Shown piece after piece: positions 14,992-35,794 of a stretch of DNA of 35,929 bases. Both the position numbers and the translations under genes were made by a program. Position 1 is the first letter of the stretch. Each line of letters begins with the position of its first letter. Under the pieces are notes generated by a model. It ran no database searches, was not told where the DNA came from, and worked only from the letters and a program-made list of their open reading frames with translations. Source of the DNA: an uncultured Bacilli bacterium (GTDB lineage: Bacteria; Bacillota_I; Bacilli_A; RF39; UBA660); contig CALVIF010000004.1 of assembly GCA_944329395.1 (NCBI GenBank), positions 1 to 35,929 of the forward strand, written 5' to 3'.

Positions 14992-15714
14992 TCAACTTTC
15001 AAAATTAAATTTATATTGAATACCATGTTCTTTAGAAGAATTTGCAAAAGTAAAATCATCACTTACCTTTACACCATCATACTTATATTTTTCTTTCATA
15101 AAATCTAACAATAATTTTCCTTTACCATCATCTCTAATTGCAACAGCTAAAGATAAATAATCTATCATTTTAGAAACATTAGTTGTATCTTCAGCAATTA
15201 ACTGTTGATAAGAAAAACTCATCTTAAAACATGTATCACTATCAATATCAATATTTGCCAAAACTGCATTCATCGTATCAATATATCCATCATAAAAACC
15301 AAAATCATATAAACAATTAGCTCTTTCCATATATTCATCAAGATTATCATATTTATTTTCAACAACATGACGTAAAAAAATTCTTTTCTTATCTCCTACA
15401 TCTATAACCAAAGACTTTATCTCAGAAATATCATCAATTGTTTTTAAAATATATTCTGCATCAGCACAAGACAATAATTCTAACATCACCATTGATTCTC
15501 CTGATTTTATTCTTTCAATAATATTAATAAGAGGATAAACTAATTCTCTATCAGGCAAATTTAAAGAATAAAAACCCCTACCATTTTTCTTTAAATTACC
15601 ACATTTTACTAATCTTGTTAAATCACTACCCGTTAAACCTGTTGCTAATAGTTCACTTCTACTAAGAACATCTTTTTTCATAAATAAATCATTCATCATT
15701 TTATAATTAACCAT
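14992..15714 (-). CDS. winged-helix-like protein, short paralog of the neighbouring 678-aa protein
   Basis: 240 aa, function unknown. The N-terminal ~50 residues (DVLSRSELLATGLTGSDLTR, then GRGFYSL) resemble the winged-helix start of AbiEi-type antitoxins and related regulators. The C-terminal part (MIDYLSLAVAIRDDGKGKLL then YDGVKVSDDF) is clearly related to the end of the upstream 678-aa protein (DYLSLADFLSERDGMGRK then YNGIRIDINDNF). The long middle of that protein is missing. It is thus a compact paralog keeping both ends. GGTGAG precedes the ATG. No AbiEii nucleotidyltransferase is nearby, so this is not a toxin-antitoxin pair as known. It may be transcribed with miaB. Confidence 0.75.
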   Translation of the reverse strand: MVNYKMMNDLFMKKDVLSRSELLATGLTGSDLTRLVKCGNLKKNGRGFYSLNLPDRELVYPLINIIERIKSGESMVMLELLSCADAEYILKTIDDISEIKSLVIDVGDKKRIFLRHVVENKYDNLDEYMERANCLYDFGFYDGYIDTMNAVLANIDIDSDTCFKMSFSYQQLIAEDTTNVSKMIDYLSLAVAIRDDGKGKLLLDFMKEKYKYDGVKVSDDFTFANSSKEHGIQYKFNFES

Positions 15715-15735
15715 TCAAACTCACCGTACTACTTC

Positions 15736-15744
15736 ATAATAACA
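15736..15744 (-). promoter_or_regulatory. extended -10 promoter of the 240-aa gene
   Basis: TGT-TATTAT on the minus strand, about 22 nt before the start codon; no clear -35. The TGT extension is seen at several other promoters in the window. Confidence 0.4.
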
Positions 15745-15753
15745 TAAATTAGT

Positions 15754-15781
15754 AAAAAAAAACAATAATATTAAATTATTG
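15754..15781 (-). terminator. intrinsic terminator at the end of the 678-aa gene
   Basis: CAATAAT-TTAAT-ATTATTG followed by nine T on the minus strand; the stem overlaps the stop codon of the 678-aa gene. Confidence 0.7.
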
Positions 15782-17812
15782 CTTTTTATATTTTGTTTTA
15801 TTAACATTTTTTTCACAAGAAAAATTATCATTAATATCTATCCTAATTCCATTATAACCACTTCTTATTTTTAATTTTTCAATTAAACTACCATTTTTTC
15901 GACCCATACCATCACGTTCAGATAAAAAATCTGCTAAACTTAAATAATCAATCGCATCAGAAAAATCAGTATTTTCAGCACTTCTATAATAAGCAAATCC
16001 CAATTTAGCATACAAATATGGTTTTGGATTCTTTATAACCGGCAATACATCTTCATATAAATTAATTGCCTCATTATATTGTTCATTATTATAAGCAAAA
16101 TTAGCCATTCTTAATGTTTCACCAATATTTATATAGTTAGAAACTCTTCCGCAAAACTTCAAAACCACATGCTTATCTTCACCTCTAGCAGAAGTAATTA
16201 CAAAAGCATCAACATCATTAATACCATCAATCAATGCTAGCACCTTACTAGTATCCTCATCACTCATAGGAGCAAGCATAGCTATATTGTCGTTTTCGCG
16301 AACATTAGCTATAACATCAGCTAAACTCAAAAGCTTCTCTTCCTCAACTTCATCTTTAATCGGCAATTCTTCCTCTGTTAAAACAACAGGTTTTAATTTA
16401 GGATAAATAACTTCTAAATCATCCTCTGATAAAGCTAATTTTTTCATTTCCAAAGATTTTCTTAAATCATCAATAGCAACTTCAGCACCACCAAGCTCTT
16501 TTGAATATGAAATAATATCTAAAAAAACTTTAGCTTTTTTTAAATCACCACTATCAAGGCTTAAGAAAAAATCTTGAATGTAAACAGCAGAAGTAAATTG
16601 ATAATCACTCTTACGTATCTTAGAAAGAGCAATCATAGGTTCAGTAAATAATGCATCATTATCTAACAAACTAAGTTTAATCAATGAAATAATATAATTA
16701 CGACAATTAGATTTATTAATATCAGCCAAATATTGGTCAAGCAATAAAATCGCACCATCAATATCACTAACCATCAATTTATTAAATATTAAAGAAAAAT
16801 CTTCATCACCAATTTTTTTCACAGTATTATCAAGTTGTAATTCTCTTTCTTTTGTCACAACCTTCTCCAGCATTTTCCTAATACCATTATCAAAAACAAT
16901 ATATGGATCAGTCATTTTATAACGATTATATAAATTATAAATATAAATCTCTCTCGCCAAAGAATATCTGCGTTTAATAATCGCCTCATTAAAATCAAAT
17001 GAAGAAAGTCCTTTGGCTACAGGTAATTTACCATCATTACACATTGACATATATTCTTTAGTTAAACAATATAAATATTTTTCATATAAACAAAAAGGTC
17101 TAACTTTTTTATCTTCTTCTAATAATCTAACAATTGTCTCATAGCTTCCATCATCAATCAAGTTATCATAAACATTCATTTTCCAAAGCATATGGCCAAA
17201 AACTTTTCCCACTAATTTTTTTGAAATTAATTCAGAAGGAGTTAACTGTTCATCATGAGCGGGATACAAACTACTAATAATACGAAAGTCACCTTTAAAA
17301 ATTGCCCATCTAACTTTATCATCAAATATATAATTATCAGATAACAATATATTATCAATTTTTGTATTTTTTACTTCGCTAAAAGGACTATCTTTAATTA
17401 AAAAACTAAGTAAAAATGCCCAAGAATTTAATAATTTATTATCAAAATAAGAAAATTCTCTCATTCTAAAAATACACTTAGACGCAAAGTCATAATTATG
17501 AACAGATATAGAAATATCAAATAGTTCCAATAAATCATTTTCTGAAAAATCCAAAATATCAATATTGTTATTTATTATATTACTAACATTATCATACTTT
17601 CCATCAGCAACTAAGTTTTTCAAATAAGATAAATATACACTACTATCATTAATTTCATAAAATCCACGCTCAGATGAAGATAAAATACCTTTTTCTTTTA
17701 ATCTTGTTAAATCCCGATTAGTAAAACCAATACTTAATAACTCTTTAGTAGTAAGTACATTTTTATCCAAAAAAATACCATACATACTATTTAAATATTC
17801 ACTTTTTATCAT
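15776..17812 (-). CDS. large winged-helix plus TPR-like helical repeat protein
   Basis: 678 aa, function unknown. The N-terminus (about 18-60: NVLTTKELLSIGFTNRDLTR, then ERGFYEIND) is the same AbiEi-like winged-helix pattern as in the 240-aa neighbour. The middle ~450 residues are helical with repeat character. Residues about 565-640 look like TPRs (YNNEQYNEAINLYEDVLPVI, YLYAKLGFAYYRSA). No transmembrane segment or catalytic motif seen. TGGAG precedes the ATG at moderate distance. A cytosolic scaffold or regulator with peptide-binding repeats is the most I can say. Confidence 0.8.
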   Translation of the reverse strand: MIKSEYLNSMYGIFLDKNVLTTKELLSIGFTNRDLTRLKEKGILSSSERGFYEINDSSVYLSYLKNLVADGKYDNVSNIINNNIDILDFSENDLLELFDISISVHNYDFASKCIFRMREFSYFDNKLLNSWAFLLSFLIKDSPFSEVKNTKIDNILLSDNYIFDDKVRWAIFKGDFRIISSLYPAHDEQLTPSELISKKLVGKVFGHMLWKMNVYDNLIDDGSYETIVRLLEEDKKVRPFCLYEKYLYCLTKEYMSMCNDGKLPVAKGLSSFDFNEAIIKRRYSLAREIYIYNLYNRYKMTDPYIVFDNGIRKMLEKVVTKERELQLDNTVKKIGDEDFSLIFNKLMVSDIDGAILLLDQYLADINKSNCRNYIISLIKLSLLDNDALFTEPMIALSKIRKSDYQFTSAVYIQDFFLSLDSGDLKKAKVFLDIISYSKELGGAEVAIDDLRKSLEMKKLALSEDDLEVIYPKLKPVVLTEEELPIKDEVEEEKLLSLADVIANVRENDNIAMLAPMSDEDTSKVLALIDGINDVDAFVITSARGEDKHVVLKFCGRVSNYINIGETLRMANFAYNNEQYNEAINLYEDVLPVIKNPKPYLYAKLGFAYYRSAENTDFSDAIDYLSLADFLSERDGMGRKNGSLIEKLKIRSGYNGIRIDINDNFSCEKNVNKTKYKKQ

Positions 17813-17856: not shown

Positions 17857-17886
17857 ATAAAAAAAAAAAGCAACTAAACAGTTGCT
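17857..17886 (-). terminator. intrinsic terminator at the end of the ankyrin gene
   Basis: AGCAACT-GTTT-AGTTGCT followed by eleven T on the minus strand, overlapping the last codons of the ankyrin gene. Confidence 0.82.
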
Positions 17887-18566
17887 TCATTTATAGATGT
17901 TTCAATAATATTTTCAAGTACTGAATAACCATCATCCATCAATTCATTTTTAATCTCTTCAAAATTTTCATTAATTTTATCAACTAAACTTTTCATACTT
18001 GGAACCAATTCTTTTTTTTCCAAACTTTCAACTATTATTTCTAAATTATTAAGTTTAGAATATTTTCCATAATAAACGTTTTTAATAGACGCATGACACA
18101 ATTTTCTAAAAGATAAAACACTTATATTATTAAATCTTTTATCCTCCAAAATTTTAAAAGCAGCTCCCATATAATTATTGTAAATTGCTCTATCAAAAAT
18201 AGTCTCACCCTTATTATTTTTAAGATTAGGAAGATAATTTTTCTTTTTTATTAACTGTGCAATTATCATAAGTGCTGAAACAGAATTATCAAGTGCTAAA
18301 ATATGTCCAAAAGTATCTCCTTCAATATTTTGGTGATTTACATTCCAATTACGTTTTTTCATAAGTTCCAATACAAACTCATACTGCTTAGCTTTTAATA
18401 ATCTAGTAACAACATCATTACCAAAACTATCACATAAGTTGACATCTATTTTATTCTTTTTAATTAATTGACCAATCACACTATAATGCCCTTCTTTAAT
18501 TAGAGCAAAAATCAGGGATGGTTCCTCACTACAAGCATTAAAAGCTTGTTGTTCATCATAAAACAT
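17874..18566 (-). CDS. ankyrin-repeat protein
   Basis: 230 aa from the ATG at 18566, which has GAGGTG 7 nt before it. An alternative TTG start at 18629, preceded by GGAGGA, would add 21 residues. Four or so ankyrin units can be seen: SLIFALIKEGHYSVIGQLI, then DSFGNDVVTRLLKAKQYEFV, NIEGDTFGHILALDNS, NNKGETIFDRAIYNNYMGAA. The last ~60 residues are helical without repeats. No signal peptide, so it is probably a cytosolic binding protein. Its partner is unknown. It lies downstream of the CPBP protease gene with a gap of about 120 nt. Confidence 0.8.
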   Translation of the reverse strand: MFYDEQQAFNACSEEPSLIFALIKEGHYSVIGQLIKKNKIDVNLCDSFGNDVVTRLLKAKQYEFVLELMKKRNWNVNHQNIEGDTFGHILALDNSVSALMIIAQLIKKKNYLPNLKNNKGETIFDRAIYNNYMGAAFKILEDKRFNNISVLSFRKLCHASIKNVYYGKYSKLNNLEIIVESLEKKELVPSMKSLVDKINENFEEIKNELMDDGYSVLENIIETSINEATV

Positions 18567-18688
18567 TTCATACACCTCTTTGTTCATGTGACAGTTACAT
18601 ATTCTATCAAATTTTCTAAAATTTGTCAAATCATCATCTCCTCCATCTACTAAAATAGTGATAAAAAAGAAATGATTTTATACAAATT

Positions 18689-22729: not shown

Positions 22730-23980
22730 TTAACACTCATTTTTCTTTTCCTTATCTAATAAATTCAATTTCTTTTGAATTTCTACATACTCTCTAATTT
22801 TATCTAATTCTAATAAATTTTCTTTATCAAACCGTGAAGAAAACAGATTCATAAACTGAATTTGTTTATTCAAATCATCTAAACTATTCTTTTTTACTAC
22901 AGCTTTCATTTTACTTAAACTTGTAAACTGTTGATTTTTATCCACCCAAATACGATATTTCAAAATTTTAAAAATTGCATCAAAAAAATATTCATCATTA
23001 TATATCATACAAGTATTTAAAATTCTTAAAAAAACATAAAAAGGCATATCATAAAGCTTATTCTGTATAGCTTTAGTAATTCCCACATCCTCAAATTCAT
23101 AATCATACATTTCATCAAAAGGAATATTATAAACGATATTTTTTAATTCAACTTGATCATCTAATAAAAATAATTGTATTAAACGATATAAATAACAAAA
23201 TTTAATAGACCATTCTTGATCAAAAGTAATTTTTTTACAATTTTTATTCTTTACTTGTAAAAGACGCAACATCTGATTTAAAAATTCCTGTTCCTTAGCA
23301 CATACAATATCAGATAAAACAAGTTCCCTTGTAAAATCATCTAGCAATTCTATAGTAGCTTCATCATTTAAAACTTCAATCTCTTTTTGCTGTAAAACCA
23401 TTTTATCGCTTTCTTTTTGCAGTTCTAATAATTCATTTAATGATATTTTAATTGAATCAGAACGCGATTTCTTATATTTCCTTTTTTTAAATGATTCATC
23501 AACTTGAAAAATCCATTTTTTAAAAATAACATCAAAATTAACCAATGTAAAAACAATAACAATAATAATAAATAACGCTAATAATTGAAGTAATAAAGAT
23601 GTCGAAATAACCGTAGTAACCTTTCCTATAATTTGACTTTTATCAACCGGATCGTCTTCAACATTATTTACATCACCTTTAGTAATTACTTTTGACCCCA
23701 AATCTTTAATTAACCGATGTGTTATAAAAAAACCGTTTGACTGATAAGTAATAATATCTCCAGAACTATAATCATTCGTTAATTTTACAATAACAATATC
23801 TCCAACATCAATGCTACCAGTCATACTTCCAGTCTTAACTTGAAAATAAGTATATCCAAAAATATTAGCATAATCTTGTTTTAAAATACCTGTTGTAACA
23901 ACAACATAACAACTAAGTGCAAGAAACAAAGTCAACAAAAAATATGCCATATATTTAAAAAATGTCTTTACTATCTTCAT
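22730..23980 (-). CDS. sipW: SipW-type signal peptidase I with long C-terminal cytosolic extension
   Basis: 416 aa, against about 190 for SipW. Transmembrane helix 1 lies at about 8-30. VKTGSMTGSIDVGD contains the catalytic Ser52. THRL holds His88 in place of the usual bacterial Lys, marking the ER/SipW type, and KGDVNNVEDD is the conserved third block. Helix 2 is at about 126-148. It should cut signal peptides of TasA-like precursors outside the membrane. The remaining ~265 residues are charged and helical (coiled-coil-like at 175-205) and cytosolic by topology; I recognise no domain there. It has its own extended -10 promoter and GGGTGATG before the ATG. The extension is the oddity. Confidence 0.88.
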   Translation of the reverse strand: MKIVKTFFKYMAYFLLTLFLALSCYVVVTTGILKQDYANIFGYTYFQVKTGSMTGSIDVGDIVIVKLTNDYSSGDIITYQSNGFFITHRLIKDLGSKVITKGDVNNVEDDPVDKSQIIGKVTTVISTSLLLQLLALFIIIVIVFTLVNFDVIFKKWIFQVDESFKKRKYKKSRSDSIKISLNELLELQKESDKMVLQQKEIEVLNDEATIELLDDFTRELVLSDIVCAKEQEFLNQMLRLLQVKNKNCKKITFDQEWSIKFCYLYRLIQLFLLDDQVELKNIVYNIPFDEMYDYEFEDVGITKAIQNKLYDMPFYVFLRILNTCMIYNDEYFFDAIFKILKYRIWVDKNQQFTSLSKMKAVVKKNSLDDLNKQIQFMNLFSSRFDKENLLELDKIREYVEIQKKLNLLDKEKKNEC

Positions 23981-24042: not shown

Positions 24043-24071
24043 CAAAAAAAAAGAAACAAATTAATTTGCTT
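24043..24071 (-). terminator. intrinsic terminator after the 539-aa coiled-coil gene
   Basis: AAGCAAA-TTAA-TTTGTTT (one G-T pair) then a T tract broken by one C, on the minus strand; the loop contains the stop codon. Confidence 0.7.
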
Positions 24072-25680
24072 GACATAAATTAATTGCTTCAATTAACAGC
24101 TGAATATCTTCAATTGATATATTAGATGATGATAAATCCCATACTCTCAAAATAAAAAGAACTTTCTCTTTTAAATTCAAAAGATTTTCAGCTAACAACT
24201 CATTTTCATGTAATGCAATATGAAAAATACGATATTTTTCACAAATCATAGAAGCAATAGAATAATCGGAAATAACTGTAATCTTATTTAAAAATGAATG
24301 ATGTGGAGCATAACAAAACAAGAAAAACTTATGAATCATATTTTCAATCTCATTACTAGAAAGATTTTGTTTTGAAAAGAAAAATCTTAGATAATCTTGA
24401 TTAGAGTCAGCAATTCTAAACAAATCAAGATAAGTGGAACCATCATTTAATTTATTTAAAATAAAGTCTTGCATTCTAAGTATAATACATTGTTGATAAA
24501 GAGAAGATAATTTTTCTATTTGTTGATTAATATTTTGTTGAAGTAAACGTAATTTATCTTTTTTACGATTACGTAAAAAAACTGATTTCTGAATATTTTT
24601 ATATTCAGCTATTAGCTTCTTACGAACTTTTTCCTCTTTTTCAATTTCTTTTAATTTGCTAGATAGTTGTCCCTTAAATGAAGACCGTTCCTTATACAAC
24701 TTTAACAATTCATTTAATAATGGCAAAAATTGATAATATCCTTCTAACTCTTCAATAGTCCAATAAAGGCTTAAAAAAATATCTTCAAAATGCTCTTTGT
24801 TAAAAGAAAATTTTTCCTTATCCTCATCTAATAAAAAAGAAAAAAAATACTCTTTTCGAATTGCACTATCTTCTAAATAATCAGATATTTTAAACTCACC
24901 ATTTAAAAATTTTTGAAAATTAAAATGTAAATTAGTACGCATTTTCTCTAAATATTGTGATTTTTTTTGATAATAAACGTTTTTAATATTTTCATTAGAA
25001 AGACCACTATCAAAAAAAGATTTTTCCTTTTCCAAACAAACAATTTCTAACTGTTTGCGATAAAGTAATAAAGTATTATAAAAAGAAAGCCGAATGTGAG
25101 TAAGAAGGTTAGGACAATCCCAATATATTTCTTCATAAATTGATTTCATCTTTATAAAGAAATCATCACTTTCCATATTTTCAAAAAAAGATTTCATATA
25201 CAATTGACAAGAAAGACTATAAGAAAAATCTTTATATGTAAGAAAAATAGAATATTGTTGAAATAAATTTAACAAATCTAAAATACATTTATTAGCAGTT
25301 TCCAAATCCAACTCTTCTTTATCAAACAAGCACATAAAATATGGAGAAAAGCCAAGTTTTTCAGCAATATTACGATTTTCATTACAATAAAAAATAATTT
25401 TTTCCAAATATTTTAATTCTTCTTCCTGTTCTTTTATTTCTTCAGAAATATCAATAGGTAAAAGTTCTTTAACTTTTTCAGAAATTAAATTTTGAACATT
25501 TTTCCTTTTTATTTCCATTTCTTTTTTTTCTGCTTTCACAAATTTATTACGATAAACAATTGCACTCCTATGATACTCATCGCGTACCTTAGTAGTACCC
25601 TTATCCATTGTAAGTGGATATTCATCTATTTTCTTTTTTCCTTGAACAATTTTATCTCTTAAAATATCAACTGTTTTCAT
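24061..25680 (-). CDS. uncharacterised coiled-coil protein in the TasA/SipW locus
   Basis: 539 aa, no family recognised. Strongly helical, with coiled coils at about 55-105 (AEKKEMEIKRKN and the Glu/Lys-rich run after it) and about 335-395. There is no signal peptide or transmembrane helix, so it is cytosolic. The middle is rich in Phe, Tyr and Leu. GAGGAGGAG precedes the ATG. The upstream 46-aa gene overlaps its start by 14 nt, giving translational coupling. It belongs to the unit with the two TasA-like proteins upstream and may be a cytosolic component of the same process. Confidence 0.78.
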   Translation of the reverse strand: MKTVDILRDKIVQGKKKIDEYPLTMDKGTTKVRDEYHRSAIVYRNKFVKAEKKEMEIKRKNVQNLISEKVKELLPIDISEEIKEQEEELKYLEKIIFYCNENRNIAEKLGFSPYFMCLFDKEELDLETANKCILDLLNLFQQYSIFLTYKDFSYSLSCQLYMKSFFENMESDDFFIKMKSIYEEIYWDCPNLLTHIRLSFYNTLLLYRKQLEIVCLEKEKSFFDSGLSNENIKNVYYQKKSQYLEKMRTNLHFNFQKFLNGEFKISDYLEDSAIRKEYFFSFLLDEDKEKFSFNKEHFEDIFLSLYWTIEELEGYYQFLPLLNELLKLYKERSSFKGQLSSKLKEIEKEEKVRKKLIAEYKNIQKSVFLRNRKKDKLRLLQQNINQQIEKLSSLYQQCIILRMQDFILNKLNDGSTYLDLFRIADSNQDYLRFFFSKQNLSSNEIENMIHKFFLFCYAPHHSFLNKITVISDYSIASMICEKYRIFHIALHENELLAENLLNLKEKVLFILRVWDLSSSNISIEDIQLLIEAINLCQAN

Positions 25681-25847: not shown

Positions 25848-26882
25848 CTAACCATTATTTTGGTTAGAAGTAAATTGTAAATTATATGTTAATGAACCAC
25901 CAGAAGCATTATTTTCGCAATCTACATCTTGACCTTCAACCCACATATAAACTCTTACTTTTGTAATTCCAGGTTGTAACGTAAAAGCACTAGCATATGC
26001 ACCACTTGGAATTCCAGATTGAACAGAAGTAATTTGTGGATCTACTTTTGAAAAATAAGTAGAATCCTTAGAGTTTAACGGAATATCAGCATCTCTTTCA
26101 ATATCAGCTTTTACACCATAATACTCTAATCTCTCATCACCAGTACCTGTCAAATCATCAACTCCAGTATATCCTGAATAATTACTTTTTGCATTAGCAA
26201 TTGCAGATGCGGTGTGAACATCATAATTTGGTTCCCAGAAATATACAACACTTGAACCACCAGAAGTCGTAAACTTTTGTTGAATTTCAGTAGCACCAGT
26301 TCCCGCTGGTACATTTCCTTCAATAACAAATGCTACTCTACCAGCATTTTCAATTCCTGTACTATTATTTTTAGCAACAACATTTGAATTAGATGATAAA
26401 TAAATTGGTGTTACAGCATTAACCTGGAAAAAAAGGTCAAATGCAATAAATTTACCAGAAGTACCATGAGTTTCTTTATCCTGTTTTGCAGTTAAAATCA
26501 AGCTACCTTCATCATTACTATCAATTTCTCCTGCAAACATTTTCATAAATCCATTAGAACTATCAATATCTCCAATAGTAGAAATTGGTGATAATGAACT
26601 TAATTCACTTGGCAATTGATTAGTAGCAGTTGGATAAGTAGTTTGAGCACCAGTTATATCACTATTACTAATAATAGTTTTCCAATTAATTGCATCAACA
26701 GATACTTGTAATCCTTCGCTAGCAGCAACATTAACATTAATACTGTTTACTGTTACTGTTTTATTAGCCGTAAACCAAGCATAAGTACTAGTTGTCAATA
26801 AAACCCCCAAAAAAGCAATCATTAACAATGATAAAAATAATTTTCTACGTTTGCTTTGTTTTTTTCTTGCGTTAGTTCGCAT
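25848..26882 (-). CDS. TasA/CalY-like secreted fibre-type protein (YAWF class)
   Basis: 344 aa from the ATG at 26882 (AAGGAG 8 nt before; an in-frame GTG three codons earlier is less likely). Lys/Arg-rich N-terminus, hydrophobic segment at about 14-32, then TSTYAWFTAN, the typical end of a SipW-dependent signal peptide. The mature part is Asn/Ser/Thr-rich and beta-type. It ends with VRVYMWVEGQDVDCENN and LTYNLQF, a C-terminal motif shared with the upstream gene. It is probably the major secreted subunit of this unit. It starts 5 nt after the upstream stop and has its own terminator. TasA family membership is inferred from the signal peptide and motif, not from full-length similarity. Confidence 0.78.
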   Translation of the reverse strand: MRTNARKKQSKRRKLFLSLLMIAFLGVLLTTSTYAWFTANKTVTVNSINVNVAASEGLQVSVDAINWKTIISNSDITGAQTTYPTATNQLPSELSSLSPISTIGDIDSSNGFMKMFAGEIDSNDEGSLILTAKQDKETHGTSGKFIAFDLFFQVNAVTPIYLSSNSNVVAKNNSTGIENAGRVAFVIEGNVPAGTGATEIQQKFTTSGGSSVVYFWEPNYDVHTASAIANAKSNYSGYTGVDDLTGTGDERLEYYGVKADIERDADIPLNSKDSTYFSKVDPQITSVQSGIPSGAYASAFTLQPGITKVRVYMWVEGQDVDCENNASGGSLTYNLQFTSNQNNG

Positions 26883-26887
26883 AATTT

Positions 26888-27598
26888 TCACTCCTTATCT
26901 TTAATATGTTCTTCATTAACATCCATATGTAATTTTACTTCTCCACCAATTAAATCATTTGTACAATCAGGATCATCACCTTCAATCCAAACAACAACTG
27001 TAAAACGATCTTTCTCACCTGGGGCAAAATTCTGCTTTTGTTCCAATACCGCAATTTCATCAGATACAAATTTCTTTGTACCATCTTCAGCTTCACCAGT
27101 TGAAGAATTTTCCTTTGCATAGACAGTACGAACACCATTATGATAAATCATAATTCGCAATGCTTTATCAACTTCTTTAATCGAATCATCAATATCCATT
27201 TGATACCAATAATGAACCACTTCTTCTCCCGCATTTACAACATAAAACGTATAAGCAATATAATTAGTTCCATTATGCGAGCCTGTTCCTTGTTGATCAA
27301 CATCATTATCAATCCAATGAATCGAAATATTATCCATATAATCTAAAGACTTTGCATCCAACTCTAATGTTTTTTTCTCAAAAGTACCATCTTCAGACAA
27401 GTAAACATTTTTTGAATTACTCTTATTTTGATCTAAAGAAATAGTAAAATGTCCTTCATTATAGATAATATAAAGAAAGAAATAGATAACCGTAATAATG
27501 ACCAATAAGAGCAAAAAAACAATTTTAGAAATTTTAGAAAACAATTTTCTACGATATACTTGTTGAGCTGTAACATTAACAAAGAAATTCTTTTTCAT
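26888..27598 (-). CDS. TasA-like membrane-anchored protein
   Basis: 236 aa. Lys/Arg-rich N-terminus and one hydrophobic segment (about 25-47) without an obvious YAWF or AKY cleavage motif, so it may stay anchored. The outer domain ends with FTVVVWIEGDDPDCTND and GGEVKLHMDV, the same W-(I/V)-EG-x-D-x-DC block as in the 344-aa protein encoded next. This gene is first in its unit, with a strong promoter. It could act as an anchor or accessory subunit, as TapA does for TasA in B. subtilis; that role is inference. GGTGA precedes the ATG. Confidence 0.76.
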   Translation of the reverse strand: MKKNFFVNVTAQQVYRRKLFSKISKIVFLLLLVIITVIYFFLYIIYNEGHFTISLDQNKSNSKNVYLSEDGTFEKKTLELDAKSLDYMDNISIHWIDNDVDQQGTGSHNGTNYIAYTFYVVNAGEEVVHYWYQMDIDDSIKEVDKALRIMIYHNGVRTVYAKENSSTGEAEDGTKKFVSDEIAVLEQKQNFAPGEKDRFTVVVWIEGDDPDCTNDLIGGEVKLHMDVNEEHIKDKE

Positions 27599-27799: not shown

Positions 27800-28393
27800 A
27801 TGAAACAAAAAAAATTTTTTATTATTTTTTTTATTATCTTTTTAAACATATTTACATTATTATTATTGCAAGGAACACAAGCAAAATACCGTAAAAAAAT
27901 AGAAGGACAAGGCCAATTAAATATTGCCAGTTGGAATATAAAAATAAATAGTGAAACAATTTTAAATAAAGAACAATTAACAAAAAAGATAGAACCAAAA
28001 TTTTTCAATAATGAGAATATAAAAGACAATGTTCTAGCACCAGGAGCAAAAGGATATTTTGATATAGAATTAGACCCAACTGAAAGTGATGTTAGCTTTC
28101 AATATAAAATTATTGCCACAGTATCAGAAGATTCAACAATCAAAGACTTTATTACAACAGGATACGAAATAAATCCCAAAGAAATTCCAAATCCAGAGCC
28201 ATACGATTCTTCAATAGGAATAATAGGAGAATTAGAACACAACTCCCAAATTCAAAAAATCCGTGTTTATATTGAATGGAATGATAATACAGAAGAAGAA
28301 ACAATGAATAATCAAGAAGACACAGAAGCAGCGACCACTGAAAATGCTAAAGCAATAATGAATGTAATATTTAATTTCACACAAAAAAAATAA
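27800..28393 (+). CDS. CalY/TasA-like secreted protein (AKY class), the only plus-strand gene
   Basis: 197 aa. Signal peptide with a hydrophobic core at about 5-24, then GTQAKYRKKIEGQG, where cleavage after Ala is likely. The mature domain has IASWNIKINSE, VLAPGAKGYFDIELDP and IRVYIEWND. It is a paralog of the 206-aa protein at 35174-35794 (VATWNILINEK, VSPGSVGVMKLVIDP, LISLMWEND). AGGAG precedes the ATG at 7 nt. It has its own promoter and a shared bidirectional terminator with the convergent gene. Role as a fibre subunit is inferred from the SipW context. Confidence 0.82.
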   Translation: MKQKKFFIIFFIIFLNIFTLLLLQGTQAKYRKKIEGQGQLNIASWNIKINSETILNKEQLTKKIEPKFFNNENIKDNVLAPGAKGYFDIELDPTESDVSFQYKIIATVSEDSTIKDFITTGYEINPKEIPNPEPYDSSIGIIGELEHNSQIQKIRVYIEWNDNTEEETMNNQEDTEAATTENAKAIMNVIFNFTQKK

Positions 28394-28416
28394 AGCCTTT
28401 TACAAAGGCTTTTTTT
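28394..28416. terminator. bidirectional terminator between convergent TasA-like genes
   Basis: AGCCTTT-TAC-AAAGGCT with T tracts on both sides (TTTTTT on plus; a run of T on minus reading the other way). It serves both the plus-strand gene and the 254-aa minus gene. Confidence 0.85.
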
Positions 28417-29179
28417 ATGAAGCTTTCTCTTGTTGAACGATTAATTTTAAATTAAAAGTTAAACAAGGTACATCCGGATGATTTTCTTTCCAAGTAATTG
28501 CTGATTCTCCCCATATAGTATCCCAATCATCTGATTCAACATATAAACCTTGTTTTTTCTTTTCTTCAAAGTTAATTTCATCAACTGTTTCATCAAATTG
28601 ATAAACCCCATCATTAAAAATATAATAATCAATTCCACTATGATATTTAAAATTACCTATAACTTTAGAATATGGATTATTAGATTCATATGGCCAATAA
28701 GCCTGAATAGTAAACCTAGAATATCCATTTCCAGATTCCAAATGCTCATTAGAAGAAATAAATTCAAATTGAAATGGAAAACCACTATTAAGAAAATTCA
28801 AAATCTCTTCATTAGTCATATCTTGAAATTCACCAAATAAATATAAATCTGATAATTCATAAGAAAATGTAGCTTCAAAGTCACTTGAATTTAAAATATT
28901 AATTGATTTTTCGAAAACGCTCATTCCAGGATAAAGTTGATCTATTTCAATATCAAAATCCATTATTTCCGATGATTCATCATGAAACTTTACATCCCAA
29001 CTGACGACATTACCACTTAATGTTAAATCAGCTTTGGAAACATAAACAAACCAAGCATAAGAATTAACTACTAATAAAAACAAAGCAAAAATAATACTCC
29101 TTGTTTTTAATAATTTCTTTTTCTTTTTTAACACTTGATAAAAATATTTTAAATTATGATTTTTTTTCTCAATCTTCAC
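28415..29179 (-). CDS. TasA-like secreted protein (YAWF class), last gene of the AAA+/SipW operon
   Basis: 254 aa. Lys-rich N-terminus, hydrophobic segment at about 27-40, then NSYAWFVYVSK, the SipW-type signal end. Mature part: VVSWDVKFHDES, then DQLYPGMSVFEKSI and a C-terminal FNLKLIVQQ, similar in plan to TasA/CalY domains (a W-x-V strand, then a P-G loop). Start is GTG, overlapping the signal peptidase gene by 11 nt with only a weak GAGAG before it, so it is coupled to that gene. Probably a substrate of the signal peptidase encoded just before it. Confidence 0.8.
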   Translation of the reverse strand: MKIEKKNHNLKYFYQVLKKKKKLLKTRSIIFALFLLVVNSYAWFVYVSKADLTLSGNVVSWDVKFHDESSEIMDFDIEIDQLYPGMSVFEKSINILNSSDFEATFSYELSDLYLFGEFQDMTNEEILNFLNSGFPFQFEFISSNEHLESGNGYSRFTIQAYWPYESNNPYSKVIGNFKYHSGIDYYIFNDGVYQFDETVDEINFEEKKKQGLYVESDDWDTIWGESAITWKENHPDVPCLTFNLKLIVQQEKAS

Positions 29180-29744
29180 TTTTTTTCTCTCTTTCTGAAC
29201 GAAATTCTACAATAGTATCAGCAACTTCTAAAAATATAACAACAACAAAAGGACAAAATATTAAAAAGAAAAAGCCAAATGGATTACGAATAATTTTATT
29301 TAAGTAAGTCATAATAGTCAATCTACATTGAACTTTTCCATAAACATTATCCTTACTCAACAAAGGATCATATTCAGAATTTGCAATTCCCTTCGTTCTA
29401 ATCATTTCAACATTAGAAACTGGATCGTTTTCAAAGCCAATAATTCTATGTGTTACAATCTTATTACTCATTTCATTTTTTTCTCCCAAATAAGTAATAT
29501 CATCGCCAATAGAAAGAGAAGAAATGTTAATTTCCTTAACTAATATAACATCACCAATCTCATAATCCGGAGACATACTAGAAGATGCAATTTGAAAAAC
29601 ACGATAGCCAAACAAACTAGAATTATTACTTAAACGCTGAAAAATCAATAAAAATAAATACAAAAAAATCATAATAGAAATTAAAATTTTTATACTACCA
29701 TAAATATAATTAAAAATTTTATTTTCTTTTAAACATTTAAACAT
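29169..29744 (-). CDS. sipW: SipW-type signal peptidase I
   Basis: 191 aa from the ATG at 29744 (a GTG four codons earlier is possible but leaves no room for a binding site). Helix 1 is at about 17-36, IASSSMSPDYEIGD carries the catalytic Ser56, and THRIIGF carries His99 (Ser/His dyad, ER/SipW type). TKGIANSEYDP is the third conserved block and helix 2 lies at about 155-175. Normal SipW length, unlike the extended one at 22730-23980. It lies between the DUF2357-like gene and a TasA-like gene, overlapping the latter, so it is the dedicated processing enzyme of this operon. Confidence 0.92.
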   Translation of the reverse strand: MFKCLKENKIFNYIYGSIKILISIMIFLYLFLLIFQRLSNNSSLFGYRVFQIASSSMSPDYEIGDVILVKEINISSLSIGDDITYLGEKNEMSNKIVTHRIIGFENDPVSNVEMIRTKGIANSEYDPLLSKDNVYGKVQCRLTIMTYLNKIIRNPFGFFFLIFCPFVVVIFLEVADTIVEFRSEREKKSED

Positions 29745-29759
29745 AATATTTCTCACATC

Positions 29760-30881
29760 CTATGACAATATTTCTAATGCTAAATCAATTTCTTTTTGAA
29801 CATTTAAAAGTTCTTTTTGAAATACTTTTGAAATCATTTCATCCCTAATCTTTAACTGTGTTCTAGTTTGCTGCAATTCTTTCATAAAAATAGCCTTCAT
29901 GTTAGCATCAGTTAAAGAAATATCCATTTCCAACAAACTTTCAATTAATTGTTTCATCATAGATGAAACCGCTCTTTTAGTAGAAACAGCATTATTCTTT
30001 AATGCTAAAGATTGTTTTATCAAATAGCTAAATGAAAAAAGCTGATCAAATTGATTTTTTAATTCTCCAGTATCTAAATAATTTTGAATATCGCGTTTCA
30101 TTTCATAATCATCTTCACTATAAGATTGAATAAAATTCCAAAGTTCTATAGCTTTCTGAAAGTTTGGATTTTTTAAAATAACATTCGTTTTACGTATAGG
30201 AGATCTAACAGGTTGAACATTTAATTTAGAAAGATTTTGCATCAATTCTGTACCAGCAAAGCCATCTAACTGTACTTTTATCTTTTTTATTCTTGTTACA
30301 ATATCATCTGTAGATATATTAGAAGATATACTCTTTTTTTCATCCAACGAATGAAAGAAAAGTTGAATATCAACCTTCTCTTCACCAAGAATTGTTTTCC
30401 CATCATATTGAAATTCAACTTTATCATAATAAGATGAATCACCAGTAAAATTTTGTAACCTTTGTTCATAAAAAGTTCTCATATTTTGAATTAAAGTATA
30501 AATAAAACGATTCTCATAAGTATCCAAACTTTCTTCCTTATTAATATTTAAAATCTTAGAAGGTTTAACATCACCAGTTTTCTGATCATAATCCTGTATT
30601 AAATTAGTATGCTGTGTCAAATGAATAACACTTTCTACTGTAATTTTTTTGGCAAGTTCTACTTTTACTATTTCTTCATCATTTATAATAAAACGTTTGG
30701 GATTTCTTAAAATATTATCAAGATATGGCAAAACATCTTCAAAAATAATAATCCAATTATCATTTAATTTCTTATCTTCATAATTTCTCTTAACAGATAA
30801 TAAAGAGGTTAAATGAGCTGAAAAGTCATCTTGTGTAATTCCATTATTTAAAAAATTACTATCATCAATAATATTTTCCAT
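29760..30881 (-). CDS. DUF2357/McrC-N-like partner of the AAA+ ATPase, no nuclease domain seen
   Basis: 373 aa. The central part contains ESLDTYENRFIYTLIQNMRT (about 115-135), like the conserved D-T-x-EN-R-F block of DUF2357 proteins, which pair with McrB-like ATPases. The usual C-terminal PD-(D/E)xK nuclease domain is not apparent. Instead the last ~110 residues are helical and coiled-coil-like (residues about 330-370). No transmembrane segment. AAGGAGG precedes the ATG, and it follows the ATPase gene by 11 nt. If the family call is right, it would be the ATPase-activating or linker subunit, without DNA cleavage. The family call is from motif only. Confidence 0.65.
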   Translation of the reverse strand: MENIIDDSNFLNNGITQDDFSAHLTSLLSVKRNYEDKKLNDNWIIIFEDVLPYLDNILRNPKRFIINDEEIVKVELAKKITVESVIHLTQHTNLIQDYDQKTGDVKPSKILNINKEESLDTYENRFIYTLIQNMRTFYEQRLQNFTGDSSYYDKVEFQYDGKTILGEEKVDIQLFFHSLDEKKSISSNISTDDIVTRIKKIKVQLDGFAGTELMQNLSKLNVQPVRSPIRKTNVILKNPNFQKAIELWNFIQSYSEDDYEMKRDIQNYLDTGELKNQFDQLFSFSYLIKQSLALKNNAVSTKRAVSSMMKQLIESLLEMDISLTDANMKAIFMKELQQTRTQLKIRDEMISKVFQKELLNVQKEIDLALEILS

Positions 30882-30892
30882 AAGTCCCCTCC

Positions 30893-32425
30893 TTATACCA
30901 TTTTCTTAAGACGCAACAAATATTCTTTACACTCATTAAAATTTTCTTTTCCAAACTCTTGATCTAAGTATGTAATAAATCCATCTATTTCATCACGTAT
31001 ATAAGCAAGATTTAATTGTTCAAATTTTCTTAATATTTTTCTTGCTATAAAATAATCAACACCCTCTACTTCACTTCCACCACATTCCACATAAGTTGCA
31101 ACAAAATCTTTTAATTGTTTTACAATACGATTACCAAAAGCAATACGAAAATGCTTAATTACATAATCATCCATTTTATTAATTTTATCTTGCATTTCTT
31201 GAGATAATGGATGTTTGTTCTTTGCTTGTGCAAATAAATTTTCTAAATAAGAACTATTTATATGCATAGCATCTGTAGGTACTGGAGTAAAAGGGGTCCC
31301 CTTATCATTAATATCAATTGGCATAGCACGGTCATATACTTTATCAGTAACCGCAAATGTAGAATCATCATTATTAATTGTCCCAATATACCACATATTA
31401 TCTGGAATTTTTAATTTACCACCAATTAATTTTTTTGGATCAGTCTCCCAAACACTAGGAACAAGTTCAATCACCCATTCATCACGACTTGGCATTTCCA
31501 ATATAGATAACATTTCAGCAAAATAATATTCAACACGAGCAATATTCATCTCATCCAAAACAGCAATATAAACATCATCATTATACCCTGCTTCATACAT
31601 TTTTTTCAAAATTTCTGTCTCATTAAATTTTTTTGTAAATTCATTAAAATACCCAAATAATTCTGTTCTATCACGCCATGAAGGTTGAACAGAAGCAATA
31701 ATTGCATCATTTAAAATAAATTTACCCCAAGCATAAGCAAGAGAAGTTTTTCCAGTTCCAGAAATACCTTGTAAAATAACAAGCCTTGTAGCAGATAAAG
31801 AAGCAATAAACAATCTAATCATATTAGTCGTATAGTAAAGTCTTAGTTTTGAAGCTGCAAAATTACGAAATAATTCAACTAATTCTTCCAAAGTAAAAGT
31901 ATTATGATAATCAACTACTTTATAATTCTGATATTCTAAATCGATAGCATGCAACTTAGAAAAACGAATATTATCCAAAGAAACATCTAAATCAGATTTT
32001 TCTTCAATTTGTGTATCATCAACAACATTACTTTCATCAGGCTTTAATCCAAGTTGAGAAACCTTCATAGCTAATATTTTTTCTTTTTCTACAACTAACT
32101 GTGCCACTTTATTATTAAGCTCTGCAATTTCTTCTAACATAGATTCCTGTTCTACCAAAGTTCTATGAAAGCGAATATATTTACGAATTAAAAAAGAAAA
32201 AAAGAAAAAAACAAGTAATAAAATAACAAGCATCACAATAATCGCTATAACTACTAAAATCCACTCACTTATTTTAAATTCATCTTTATAGTATTTTAAA
32301 ACAAATAAGTACTGATTAAAATTAAACATCTGAATAATTCCAGAATAAAATCCCAAAAAAATCTTTTTTAACCCTGAAAAAAATACAGACATAAATTCAT
32401 ACAAAAAACGCACATATGTATCCAT
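30893..32425 (-). CDS. membrane-anchored McrB-like AAA+ ATPase
   Basis: 510 aa from the ATG at 32425; AAGGAG stands 13 nt away, overlapping the stop of the upstream gene, and a TTG ten codons earlier lacks any site. A transmembrane helix at about 55-80 is followed by a coiled coil (about 90-125). The AAA+ domain has Walker A LQGISGTGKTS (about 218-228), Walker B VYIAVLDEMNIARVEYYF, sensor-1 WYIGTINNDDS and an Arg in KVYDRAMPI. The DEMN-x-ARVEYYF and GTINNDD-x-T pattern is that of McrB/MoxR-type AAA+ proteins, not of transposition or protease AAA+. McrB itself is a soluble GTPase; a membrane anchor is unusual. Operon partners are the DUF2357-like protein and SipW. Confidence 0.88.
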   Translation of the reverse strand: MDTYVRFLYEFMSVFFSGLKKIFLGFYSGIIQMFNFNQYLFVLKYYKDEFKISEWILVVIAIIVMLVILLLVFFFFSFLIRKYIRFHRTLVEQESMLEEIAELNNKVAQLVVEKEKILAMKVSQLGLKPDESNVVDDTQIEEKSDLDVSLDNIRFSKLHAIDLEYQNYKVVDYHNTFTLEELVELFRNFAASKLRLYYTTNMIRLFIASLSATRLVILQGISGTGKTSLAYAWGKFILNDAIIASVQPSWRDRTELFGYFNEFTKKFNETEILKKMYEAGYNDDVYIAVLDEMNIARVEYYFAEMLSILEMPSRDEWVIELVPSVWETDPKKLIGGKLKIPDNMWYIGTINNDDSTFAVTDKVYDRAMPIDINDKGTPFTPVPTDAMHINSSYLENLFAQAKNKHPLSQEMQDKINKMDDYVIKHFRIAFGNRIVKQLKDFVATYVECGGSEVEGVDYFIARKILRKFEQLNLAYIRDEIDGFITYLDQEFGKENFNECKEYLLRLKKMV

Positions 32426-32435
32426 ATTATACCAC

Positions 32436-33539
32436 TTACTCCTTAACCTGCTCAATTAATAATTCTTTACCTGAAGAAAAGTTATATTTAGAAACAATTG
32501 CATAGTCACTTTGTTTAATATTATAAATATATACATAGTTAAATAATTTTAAAGAAGATATTGCATCCAACTTTTTAGTAGCATCTCTTACTCTAGAAAA
32601 ATCAACAGCTAAACAAAAAAAATAAGAATTAACAAAGCGACTTAAATATTTACGATGATTCAAATAAACATCAAAATCAATCATAAAAACAAGATGTTCT
32701 TTTAAATAATCATAATCAATACAAGATAAAATCTTTAAAAAACTTTTTTTTCTAGACAAAATAATACTGGAAATATTTAAAAAATAAAGCCCAAATTCCT
32801 TTTGAGCCAAAACATTTCGTAATGCCATAAAAGAAAATAACTGACAAATAATCTTAGATTTATCAAAAGAAATAACCTCATCTTCAAAAACTCTAGATAA
32901 TGTATTACTTTTATATTTTTTTTGTAATTTAGGAATTGAATAAATCAAATTTAATTTATAATAATTTAAATTTTGTGAAAACTTAAAAGTACATAAAGAC
33001 ATAGAAAATTGATGATAAGAATCTAAAAAAGTTTTTTCTTTTTTTCTTTTCTCCTTTAGCCAAGATAAAACATTAGAAGTAATAACAGAAACATTTTCAA
33101 CTTTAATCATTGAATAAGAAGAAACAATTCCTTTGATTTTTTCAATAAGATAATTATCAACTGTTTCATCTGAAATATCTAAAAAATCAATATTAACTGC
33201 CATCAATGCAACATAGTAGCAATATTCAATTAACTGCTTTTGATGTGCATAAGTATATGCATCCTCAAGAACATCGGCATGATCTAAATAATATAACAGT
33301 TCAACACGTACACCATCTAATTCATTTTGAATCAAAGAAATATCATAATTTACAACACACTCAGGCAAAACAGTTTCTAATTTATGAAAATAAAAACAAT
33401 TAAAATAAGTAGAAAAAAATCTTTTCAAAATATTATCTTTTTCTTTTTCATCACAAGGATAAGACAAAATTAATTTTTCAAAAGAAAGAAATTTATTCAT
33501 TTGAAAAGAGAAATAATAATTAAAAATATTCTCACCCAT
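32436..33539 (-). CDS. uncharacterised helical protein, first gene of the AAA+/SipW operon
   Basis: 367 aa from the ATG at 33539 (GGTGATAAG before it). A longer frame exists, but it would begin upstream of the promoter's start point, so the shorter form is right. Rich in Tyr, Phe, Leu and Lys, helical, no signal peptide or transmembrane segment, no recognised domain. It ends 10 nt before the ATPase start. The large proportion of aromatic residues and lack of catalytic motifs suggest a structural or adaptor subunit that works with the ATPase; this is only context. Confidence 0.8.
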   Translation of the reverse strand: MGENIFNYYFSFQMNKFLSFEKLILSYPCDEKEKDNILKRFFSTYFNCFYFHKLETVLPECVVNYDISLIQNELDGVRVELLYYLDHADVLEDAYTYAHQKQLIEYCYYVALMAVNIDFLDISDETVDNYLIEKIKGIVSSYSMIKVENVSVITSNVLSWLKEKRKKEKTFLDSYHQFSMSLCTFKFSQNLNYYKLNLIYSIPKLQKKYKSNTLSRVFEDEVISFDKSKIICQLFSFMALRNVLAQKEFGLYFLNISSIILSRKKSFLKILSCIDYDYLKEHLVFMIDFDVYLNHRKYLSRFVNSYFFCLAVDFSRVRDATKKLDAISSLKLFNYVYIYNIKQSDYAIVSKYNFSSGKELLIEQVKE

Positions 33540-33566
33540 CTTATCACCAATCCTACTACAATTCAT

Positions 33567-33595
33567 AGTATACCAAATCAACTATAAAAAATCAA
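33567..33595 (-). promoter_or_regulatory. promoter of the AAA+/DUF2357/SipW/TasA-like operon
   Basis: TTGATT (33590-33595), 17-nt spacer, TATACT (33567-33572) with a TGG extension, on the minus strand. The start of transcription would fall about 20 nt before the ATG at 33539. Confidence 0.75.
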
Positions 33596-33626
33596 ATTTG
33601 CAACATCATATTTTAAAACAATTTAT

Positions 33627-34562
33627 TTAAAATGAAGCAGTCACTACATCAACATCAATAATAGAACTACCTATTCCAGAAAAAGAATAATCTTTATCTA
33701 TATCTTTTTTATAAAACAATACTTTCTCACTAGAACTAGCATCAATATAAAAAGAATATGAAGAGATATAAGAATTTCCATCAATAGAAATAGTTTCTAA
33801 ACTTCCAGGAATCATATTCTTATAGCTTTTATTAGTCATATCTAAAAAAACAAGATTAGAAGGAATACTAAGTTTAACCTTTGCCGAAAAACAATATTTA
33901 CGTTTATCAGTAGATAAACTTAAATATTCTTCTATTGACAAATGATCACCAACACTATAAGAATCAAAAGCTGTATGAACCTCATAATAAGAAATAGAAT
34001 TTGTTAACTCTAACGTAAAAAATTTATCACCTGAATGATCTATAATTTTATAAGAAAAATTTTTTGTTTGAACACCAATTTTATACTTTGCAGACAATTT
34101 TTTTTGATATGGAAAAGAAGAAATTGCCTCAACTTCAACATCAATCACCTGACCATCATTAATTGTGGATTTAGGGTGAATATTTACAATAAAACTATCA
34201 ACTTTTTTACTTTGATAAATAATACCATCACTTTTATCAGTACTACATTCAACATAATCAGGACAAATTACATTAATTTGATACTGAATATCAGACTTAG
34301 TCCAAATTAAATCATTTTTTTTAGAATTAACATCAATTGTTAAAGAATAATTATTTACTCCATCCCAATTACTTATAGAATATGAAGCTCCATTCTTTTT
34401 TAAAATAGAACTAGAAAAATAAAATCCTTGACTCTCTAAAATAAAATTATGAATTGAACTATAAATATATCTAGCCAAAGAAGATTGCAAAAATAAAATA
34501 AATAAAAGTAATAAAATAAGAAAAAGTAATAACAATTTCTTTTTTTTTGACAGTTTTTTCAT
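33627..34562 (-). CDS. secreted TasA-unit protein (ARY class), third gene of its unit
   Basis: 311 aa from the ATG at 34562 (GAGGTG before it). Very Lys/Leu-rich N-terminus with hydrophobic core at about 11-26, then QSSLARYIYSS, the same small-Ala-(K/R)-(Y/F) end as in its neighbours. The mature part is beta-type, with Ser/Asp/Asn-rich sequence and two Cys close together (INVICPDYVECSTDK). It may be two related beta domains. It starts 1 nt after the upstream stop. No family recognised beyond the signal peptide class; its larger size suggests an adaptor or adhesin within the fibre set. Confidence 0.76.
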   Translation of the reverse strand: MKKLSKKKKLLLLFLILLLLFILFLQSSLARYIYSSIHNFILESQGFYFSSSILKKNGASYSISNWDGVNNYSLTIDVNSKKNDLIWTKSDIQYQINVICPDYVECSTDKSDGIIYQSKKVDSFIVNIHPKSTINDGQVIDVEVEAISSFPYQKKLSAKYKIGVQTKNFSYKIIDHSGDKFFTLELTNSISYYEVHTAFDSYSVGDHLSIEEYLSLSTDKRKYCFSAKVKLSIPSNLVFLDMTNKSYKNMIPGSLETISIDGNSYISSYSFYIDASSSEKVLFYKKDIDKDYSFSGIGSSIIDVDVVTASF

Positions 34563-34563
34563 A

Positions 34564-35160
34564 TTACACCTCACCTATTACCTGTTTTGCCTCAATTGTA
34601 AATTCTACTAAATCTAATGAATCAGCATATGCATCCGAAAAAGAATATGCTAAAGGAAATTTAATAGCTAATATATAAACATCTTTACTTTGAACCCTAT
34701 AGGAAAATAAAGTCTCCTCTGTTTTAGAAAATTCATAATACCAAGAACCATCTTCATCTTGAATGGTATTACAATTTTTTAATAAATTAATTGCATCTTC
34801 TCCAGGACTTTCATTTTTATAAAGTTCATACGTTATTGGCAAATTAGTAGTAGTTCTAATTTGCAAAGAATAACTCAAATCAACATCACTCATTTTTTTA
34901 TTATCATAATTACTTACACTAAAAGTATAATAATAAGGTTCCTCTCTTGGTACAATTCCCTCAGTATTCATTTGAAATGAAAACAACTCTTCTTGAAATA
35001 GAAAAACTGCATAATCAACATCTAAAGATATGTTTGTTCCAGATTGAAATTTTGCAGATGTAATTGGTTTTAATAAAAAAAGAGAAAAAAAGAAAAGAAA
35101 AGTTAAAGTAAAAGATAAAAATAAAAATCGAATTTTATATTTCATCATTCTTTTTTTCAT
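34564..35160 (-). CDS. CalY/TasA-like secreted protein (AKF class)
   Basis: 198 aa. Basic N-terminus, hydrophobic segment at about 11-31, then PITSAKFQSGTN (cleavage after Ala expected). The mature domain has YYYTFSVSNYDNKKMSDVDL, a typical N-x-D-x-x-x-S-x-V-x-L fibre-domain strand, and ends VEFTIEAKQVIGEV. GGAGGAAG precedes the ATG. Second gene of the unit beginning at 35794. Assigned to the family by signal peptide type, length and SipW context. Confidence 0.78.
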   Translation of the reverse strand: MKKRMMKYKIRFLFLSFTLTFLFFFSLFLLKPITSAKFQSGTNISLDVDYAVFLFQEELFSFQMNTEGIVPREEPYYYTFSVSNYDNKKMSDVDLSYSLQIRTTTNLPITYELYKNESPGEDAINLLKNCNTIQDEDGSWYYEFSKTEETLFSYRVQSKDVYILAIKFPLAYSFSDAYADSLDLVEFTIEAKQVIGEV

Positions 35161-35173
35161 ATTTTCTTCCTCC

Positions 35174-35794
35174 TTACTCTATATAGCTTTCAATTACCTC
35201 TCCCTGATATTGACTGGCTCTAAAATGAAGTTTTGCATAACTAGGTTGTTTTATACCAGTACCAATCATTGTATCATTTACATTTTGATTTTCATCATTC
35301 TCCCACATAAGCGAAATCAAAATTTCTTTCTTTTTTTTATTATTGATATCATCTAAAGAAAAAATTCCTGTATATGTATTTTCACCTGTACGAATTAACT
35401 CATCATTATCAACTGCAATTGATAAAATATGTAACAAATATTCATCACTAAATCCACGATCTTCATAAGTAATATCATAACGAATTGCAACTTCAGTAGT
35501 AGAAGGATCAATCACCAATTTCATAACACCAACACTTCCCGGAGATACTTTTCCTTCTCTAGTATGATTAGTATCCCACGTAATATTATCAACTAACAAA
35601 TCTTGTTCTATAAATTCATTTAAATTTTTCTCATTAATCAAAATATTCCAAGTAGCAACTTCCACTGAAGCATCTCCAATAACTTCTGATTCAAACGCAG
35701 TATAAGTTTTTCCCCCCATTTCGTAAATTATCCAAAGACAACAAAAAAAAAGTATTGGAAAAAGAAAAAACCTCTTTACCATAAAATCATCCAT
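35174..35794 (-). CDS. CalY/TasA-like secreted protein, first gene of its unit
   Basis: 206 aa from the ATG at 35794 (AGGAGG, 6 nt). Hydrophobic core at about 8-24, then GKTYTAFESEVIGD. The mature domain has VATWNILINEK, VSPGSVGVMKLVIDP and LISLMWENDENQN, clearly paralogous to the plus-strand 197-aa protein. It ends LHFRASQYQGEV, the Q-ending strand typical for camelysin-like proteins. Followed by the 198-aa and 311-aa secreted proteins with gaps of 13 and 1 nt, forming a three-gene secreted-protein unit. Confidence 0.8.
   Translation of the reverse strand: MDDFMVKRFFLFPILFFCCLWIIYEMGGKTYTAFESEVIGDASVEVATWNILINEKNLNEFIEQDLLVDNITWDTNHTREGKVSPGSVGVMKLVIDPSTTEVAIRYDITYEDRGFSDEYLLHILSIAVDNDELIRTGENTYTGIFSLDDINNKKKKEILISLMWENDENQNVNDTMIGTGIKQPSYAKLHFRASQYQGEVIESYIE

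Follow-up and report, generated by a model that had tools for sequence, protein, structure and literature searches.

Why should a McrB-like NTPase, a relative of restriction enzymes, stand in one operon with a signal peptidase and secreted proteins? This question is raised by contig CALVIF010000004.1 of an uncultured Bacilli bacterium (assembly GCA_944329395.1). The window, meaning the whole stretch of DNA analysed, is this entire contig of 35,929 bp (contig end at 35929), part of a metagenome-assembled genome (MAG) of 1.21 Mb, the named relatives of which are uncultured gut Bacilli, Tenericutes and Erysipelotrichaceae-labelled MAGs. Five open reading frames (ORFs) on the minus strand, between 28415 and 33581, encode a helical protein (helix1), a membrane-anchored McrB-like NTPase, a DUF2357 protein, a SipW-type signal peptidase and a secreted protein (YAWF5). 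Their intergenic gaps range from -20 to +11 nucleotides (nt), confirming the tight same-strand arrangement described in the initial annotation of the locus. The locus probably (at a rough probability of 60%) encodes an envelope machine of the CoCoPALM type, with a motor dedicated to the biogenesis of surface filaments by a presumed mechanism set out below.

The scan for relatives was performed with the ATPase alone; 449 were found and 80 kept, and gene order was counted over 87 usable loci. Relative to the ATPase gene, the DUF2357 gene occupies position +1 in 87/87 loci, the SipW gene +2 in 85/87 and YAWF5 +3 in 80/85, while helix1 is located at -1 in 80/83 and u33627, a gene for a further secreted protein, at -2 in 74/79. 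As the loci were picked by the ATPase alone, chance is ruled out as the source of this order, and the expectation that the five genes would recur in the same order among relatives was borne out. Homologues in this ATPase family are mostly accompanied by SipW, and not by nucleases or methylases. In a class-wide search the ATPase was present in 140 of 395 genomes, and in loci from nine other families (f7, f10, f12, f14, f16, f18, f20, f21 and f22) a transmembrane (TM) ATPase is accompanied by SipW, exported proteins and, second ATPase copies apart, DUF2357. Two block copies per genome, one of them without DUF2357, were seen in L172 and L175 (genomes G250 and G251), the copies in G250 lying about 15 kb apart. 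Among the 145 genomes of the own family, the ATPase occurs together with DUF2357 in 39 (Fisher 9e-32) and with u33627 in 29 (Fisher 3e-19). The distance matrices of the operon members correlate with r values of 0.75-0.93, obtained without a housekeeping-gene control.

A PDB profile search with the ATPase returned McrB as the sole match (6hz4, E 2e-5), and a single TM segment, bordered by basic residues at its C-terminal side, could be assigned to residues ~66-86; the description of this protein as a membrane-anchored McrB-like ATPase was therefore upheld. Its motifs are GISGTGKTS (Walker A), VLDEMN (Walker B) and GTINNDDST. The layout consists of a conserved N-terminal segment, the TM segment (kept in 27/27 aligned members), a charged linker rich in Glu, Lys and Leu, and a GTPase core in which Walker A, Walker B and N-N-D-D-S-T do not vary. 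The form N-[NKR]-D-[DE]-S-T, present in all aligned window-like members, corresponds to the NxD (not NxxD) motif of a described GTPase variant (Bell et al., eLife 2024, PMC11090510). Where McrB-like proteins carry a DNA-recognition domain at the N-terminus, no Pfam domain was found above the cut-off, and the TM segment and linker are located there instead. These sequence features place the ATPase in the NxD branch of the McrB GTPases and give it a conserved transmembrane helix near the N-terminus. When 39 GTPase domains were put into one tree, a clade with 99% ultrafast bootstrap united the window protein with its relatives from the class, L185 excepted, and the CoCoNuT-like plasmid proteins fell outside it. 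Identity to the closest plasmid relatives is 32-42%; of the plasmid loci in which a DUF2357-like gene comes next, the four nearest resemble CoCoNuT systems. An origin from a mobile plasmid or phage was considered and rejected, the plasmid and phage matches spanning the GTPase core alone (<80% of the query).

Related NTPases without SipW (L182-L185) lie next to genes whose exported products are giant or multiple. In L182:7763-12477 and L183:7998-12658, which belong to two families, tandem McrB-like genes are situated on both sides of the DUF2357 gene, and giant exported proteins are encoded downstream. Within each genome the GTPase parts of the copies (about 1080 nt) are 93-100% identical at the DNA level with unrelated membrane anchors, and between the genomes the copies have diverged, which points to gene conversion and to rings that carry two types of anchor. 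In L184:5737-17493, a related McrB-like protein of 614 residues with multiple TM segments is encoded after two small exported proteins and before a zinc-ribbon protein, an ABC transporter and exported proteins.

For the DUF2357 protein, the family was assigned via PF09823 (E 1.6e-12 in the window, with a match in 55/55 members), resembling the N-terminal domain of McrC. No nuclease family was consistently found in the 55 members, and none in ten distant ones or in the window proteins scanned, in agreement with the earlier view of a protein without visible nuclease. No acidic column conserved at 90% or more was found after residue 123 of the alignment, so a PD-(D/E)xK active site is unlikely. 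The AlphaFold (AF2) model has a predicted local distance difference test score (pLDDT) of 79 and a helical C-terminal end, with a predicted helix at 325-372. Neither Foldseek nor VIA matched this model to any fold with confidence, and McrC and PD-(D/E)xK proteins were missing from their results. Because the core (60-116) has low pLDDT and is poorly modelled, the fold searches were not used as proof of nuclease absence. DUF2357 proteins are longer in distant relatives. Short extra ones of 331-336 residues were encountered at G102:C18:67069 and G109:C2:41457, and no McrB-like partner was detected for that of G109.

The peptidase matched TIGR02228 (5.6e-21; 75 bits, cut-off 51.85) and the SipW model (6.8e-19), while the strict Bacillus SipW model gave a score of 68 where 190 is required. 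Its catalytic motifs, Ser in SSSM and His in THR, agree with the Ser/His SipW peptidase that had been predicted. Fusions of SipW were seen with helix1 in 10 genomes, where helix1 forms the C-terminal part and the ATPase gene comes immediately after, with u34564 in 5 genomes and with YAWF5 in 3 genomes. Apart from gene order in the operon, these fusions are a separate link between the peptidase, the helical protein and the exported proteins. PDB profile searches with helix1 yielded chance matches or none, and its identity as a HEPN protein was rejected, as no conserved Arg or His column is present in its alignment. Of the 113 good genomes in the family, 108 encode a SipW-type peptidase and 32 the ATPase, and a need of the NTPase for SipW export in general was accordingly rejected. 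The module can thus be regarded as an add-on for particular export products. Genomes with the NTPase carry 4.2 SipW genes on average, versus 1.9 in those without (p 1e-11).

Several secreted proteins at the locus have an N-terminal membrane helix, and most of them show the A-x-aromatic cleavage motif of the SipW type; an aromatic P2' residue is typical of SipW substrates (PMC10269814). A-x-[FWY] follows the helix in 78/78 members of YAWF5, 40/42 of YAWF25848 and 57/69 of p27800, above the shuffled expectation, and TIGR04088 matched YAWF25848. YAWF5 carries NSYAWF, and its AF2 model (pLDDT 91) consists of an N-terminal helix and a beta-sandwich, with PapD/MSP/Ig-like proteins as best folds (Z about 6). 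The designation of YAWF5 as a YAWF-class TasA-like protein thus fits its signal type and beta-sandwich, and not sequence homology to TasA. PDB profile searches with u33627, YAWF5, YAWF25848 and p27800 gave chance matches or none, and neither Pfam on p27800 nor NCBIfam on YAWF5 members pointed to a consistent family. In the relatives, 39 neighbouring proteins, mostly of 1000-2100 residues, constitute one family of large surface proteins. On contig 23 of the window genome (L191:37-8284), another SipW is located next to a 2551-residue protein similar in look to these, with an adjoining transposase-like ORF.

CoCoPALM systems are described as having an NxD McrB GTPase joined to a TM/coiled-coil domain like FtsB, a McrC homologue to which a coiled coil is usually, though not universally, fused, and linked signal-peptidase genes, which are likely pilus assembly factors (PMC11090510). 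The description takes up one paragraph, is deferred to a later paper, and gives no substrates or mechanism; no further CoCoPALM paper was found in a literature search. The window locus shares with them the NxD motif, the adjacent DUF2357 McrC homologue and the signal-peptidase gene, and its NTPase has an N-terminal TM segment followed by the Glu/Lys/Leu-rich linker, a candidate counterpart of the FtsB-like domain. Judged by these sequence traits, the locus can be assigned to the named, uncharacterised CoCoPALM kind, and the combination is not undescribed, as had been supposed. Added here are the SipW type of the peptidase, seven secreted families, helix1, the SipW fusions, the nuclease loss and the distribution across Bacilli lineages. 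CoCoNuT systems (PMC11090510) also have an NxD GTPase and a DUF2357 partner, but the window block is membrane-anchored, and neither a nuclease, on the DUF2357 protein or elsewhere in the operon, nor an RNA-binding or HEPN partner was found. McrBC of E. coli K-12 has the GTPase core and the McrC N-domain in common with the window, which differs in its TM anchor and in NxD instead of NxxD; no methylcytosine-binding domain or PD-(D/E)xK nuclease was found in it. The tapA-sipW-tasA and sipW-tasA-calY operons of Bacillus likewise combine SipW with secreted proteins in which the cleavage site is followed by an aromatic residue, but they contain no NTPase, and TasA is not a sequence homologue of the window substrates. 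The window kind has more substrate families, with giant proteins nearby in relatives.

In its most specific form, the proposal is that a hexameric GTPase/ATPase of restriction-enzyme descent, held in the membrane and stimulated by a McrC stalk without nuclease, provides the power or the timing for the assembly of extracellular filaments processed by SipW; we consider this possible and hold it tentatively, at less than even odds. In the broader envelope-machine reading, McrB subunits would assemble into a hexamer at the cytoplasmic side of the membrane, the conserved first ~55 residues of the NTPase lying outside the cell according to the positive-inside rule, and DUF2357 would sit in the ring and stimulate hydrolysis by analogy with McrC. 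The hydrolysis cycle could act via the membrane anchors and SipW/helix1 on the membrane-held secreted subunits, and so control how they are cleaved, released or added in an ordered way to a filament or layer on the surface. Such a logic would be like that of type IV pili (peptidase, hexameric motor and helix-anchored subunits), built of McrBC and SipW parts.

An envelope function is well supported by gene context, from which we infer the assembly-motor role. The conserved order, co-occurrence, fusions and membrane anchor, together with the absence of a visible nuclease, make an envelope role fit better than restriction. In this respect the earlier suggestion that the ATPase was repurposed for the envelope stands; driving fibre assembly as a general requirement of SipW does not, because SipW export runs without the module in most related genomes. 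The patchy presence of the NTPase in the family (32/113 good genomes), its match to the PADLOC candidate-defence model PDC-M26A (E 7e-37, best stretch at positions 284-433, about 150 of 724) and a GTPase core that belongs with CoCoNuT-like plasmid systems could instead indicate envelope-linked defence, in which the NTPase would detect nucleic acid of phages or an insertion into the membrane, with the secreted proteins serving as shield or effector on the surface. This is quite unlikely, as no nuclease, HEPN motif or DNA-binding domain was found, a PADLOC scan of three window proteins brought up no other family of weight, the operon members share inheritance patterns, and long runs of secreted-protein genes and SipW fusions are unlike effectors. 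AAA+ proteins are commonly partnered with membrane proteases, and the adjacency to SipW and the SipW-helix1 fusion would also suit a role of the NTPase and DUF2357 in quality control or regulation of SipW, as an unfoldase clearing stalled precursors or by gating of the peptidase, and not as an assembly motor. We consider such a role unlikely, since the linkage extends to specific secreted families (u33627, YAWF5) and not to SipW alone, SipW works without the NTPase in most genomes, and relatives of the NTPase stand beside giant secreted proteins without SipW. That two neighbouring modules were merely co-inherited is highly improbable: stable gene orders are many in small genomes and SipW genes are common in the family, but the order is kept across ten families despite rearranged flanks, the gaps are of few nt, and the genes are present and absent jointly.

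Several points weigh against the envelope machine itself. Common descent also makes the distance matrices of related sequences correlate, and SipW-type export proceeds without the NTPase in most related genomes, the module not being essential to it. No TasA sequence match was obtained at E up to 5 with four substrate profiles, and in structure the TasA fibre (8aur, Z 5.1, 110 residues aligned) is tied with generic unrelated beta-sandwiches. The A-x-aromatic motif is not above expectation in u35174 and u26888, and McrC is absent from the results of both fold searches with the poorly modelled DUF2357 core. Hydrolysis, ring formation, interaction and filaments are all putative.

McrBC relatives are usually filed as defence, and the window family ties one branch of them to cell-surface building. 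If the assembly-motor proposal is true, an immunity motor would have been recruited for envelope construction, adding a third way to build surface fibres to the two given by type IV pili and spontaneous donor-strand exchange, and McrB-like genes should be labelled antiviral with caution when homology is the only ground. No energy-driven component for SipW/TasA-type fibres was found in a literature search. The compact gene set offers testable pairings (SipW-helix1, SipW-substrate fusions, NTPase-DUF2357), and the block is widespread in small-genome gut Bacilli.

The initial annotation had enclosed exactly five genes between one promoter and one terminator. The terminator is convincing: it is a 9-bp bidirectional hairpin, and 7 such hairpins were counted in the region versus 1.9 expected. 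The promoter proposed at 33567-33595 scored 9/12, with 77 such sites in the region against 74 expected by chance, and hence no excess. In relatives the operon runs on upstream in kept order, with median gaps of 24 nt (u33627), 9 nt (u34564) and 8 nt (u35174). The unit therefore spans 28415-35794, with eight genes or more, and probably starts elsewhere than at the proposed promoter. The features are listed below.

Features of the NTPase-SipW locus and its surroundings in the window
Feature	Coordinates	Strand	Remarks
u35174	35174..35794	-	Secreted; probable first visible operon member; position -4 in 41/77 loci
u34564	34564..35160	-	Secreted; operon member; position -3 in 58/79 loci; SipW fusions in other genomes
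u33627	33627..34574	-	Conserved secreted protein; operon member
helix1	32436..33581	-	Helical protein; probable start ATG 33539
McrB-like NTPase	30893..32455	-	N-terminal segment, TM, coiled-coil-like linker, NxD GTPase core; conserved start ATG near 32425
DUF2357 (McrC N-domain) protein	29760..30881	-	PF09823 match; long C-terminal helix; nuclease none detected
SipW-type signal peptidase	29169..29756	-	ER/archaeal type, Ser-His
YAWF5	28415..29179	-	Secreted; SipW-type signal (SYAWF), beta-sandwich domain; A-W-F invariant among members
Intrinsic terminator	28392..28412	.	Bidirectional; common to operon and convergent gene
p27800	27800..28393	+	Convergent, secreted; QAKY signal; shares terminator; position +4 in 56/82 loci
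u26888	26888..27598	-	Secreted, membrane-anchored; NTPase neighbour kept in distant families
YAWF25848	25848..26891	-	Secreted; TIGR04088 SipW-dependent signal (STYAWFT)
Coiled-coil-rich protein	24061..25680	-	Cluster conservation partial
Second SipW-type peptidase	22730..23980	-	C-terminal extension; TIGR02228 1.7e-15

Downstream of the operon, p27800, the exported proteins at 25848-27598, the coiled-coil-rich gene and the second SipW recur in part of the relatives. An Rfam scan of the window gave no match. Farther away, two genes at 14992-17812 have a similar short N-terminal region, the first with a weak AbiEi_4 match (E 3e-4), and are followed by an ankyrin-repeat gene at 17874-18629.

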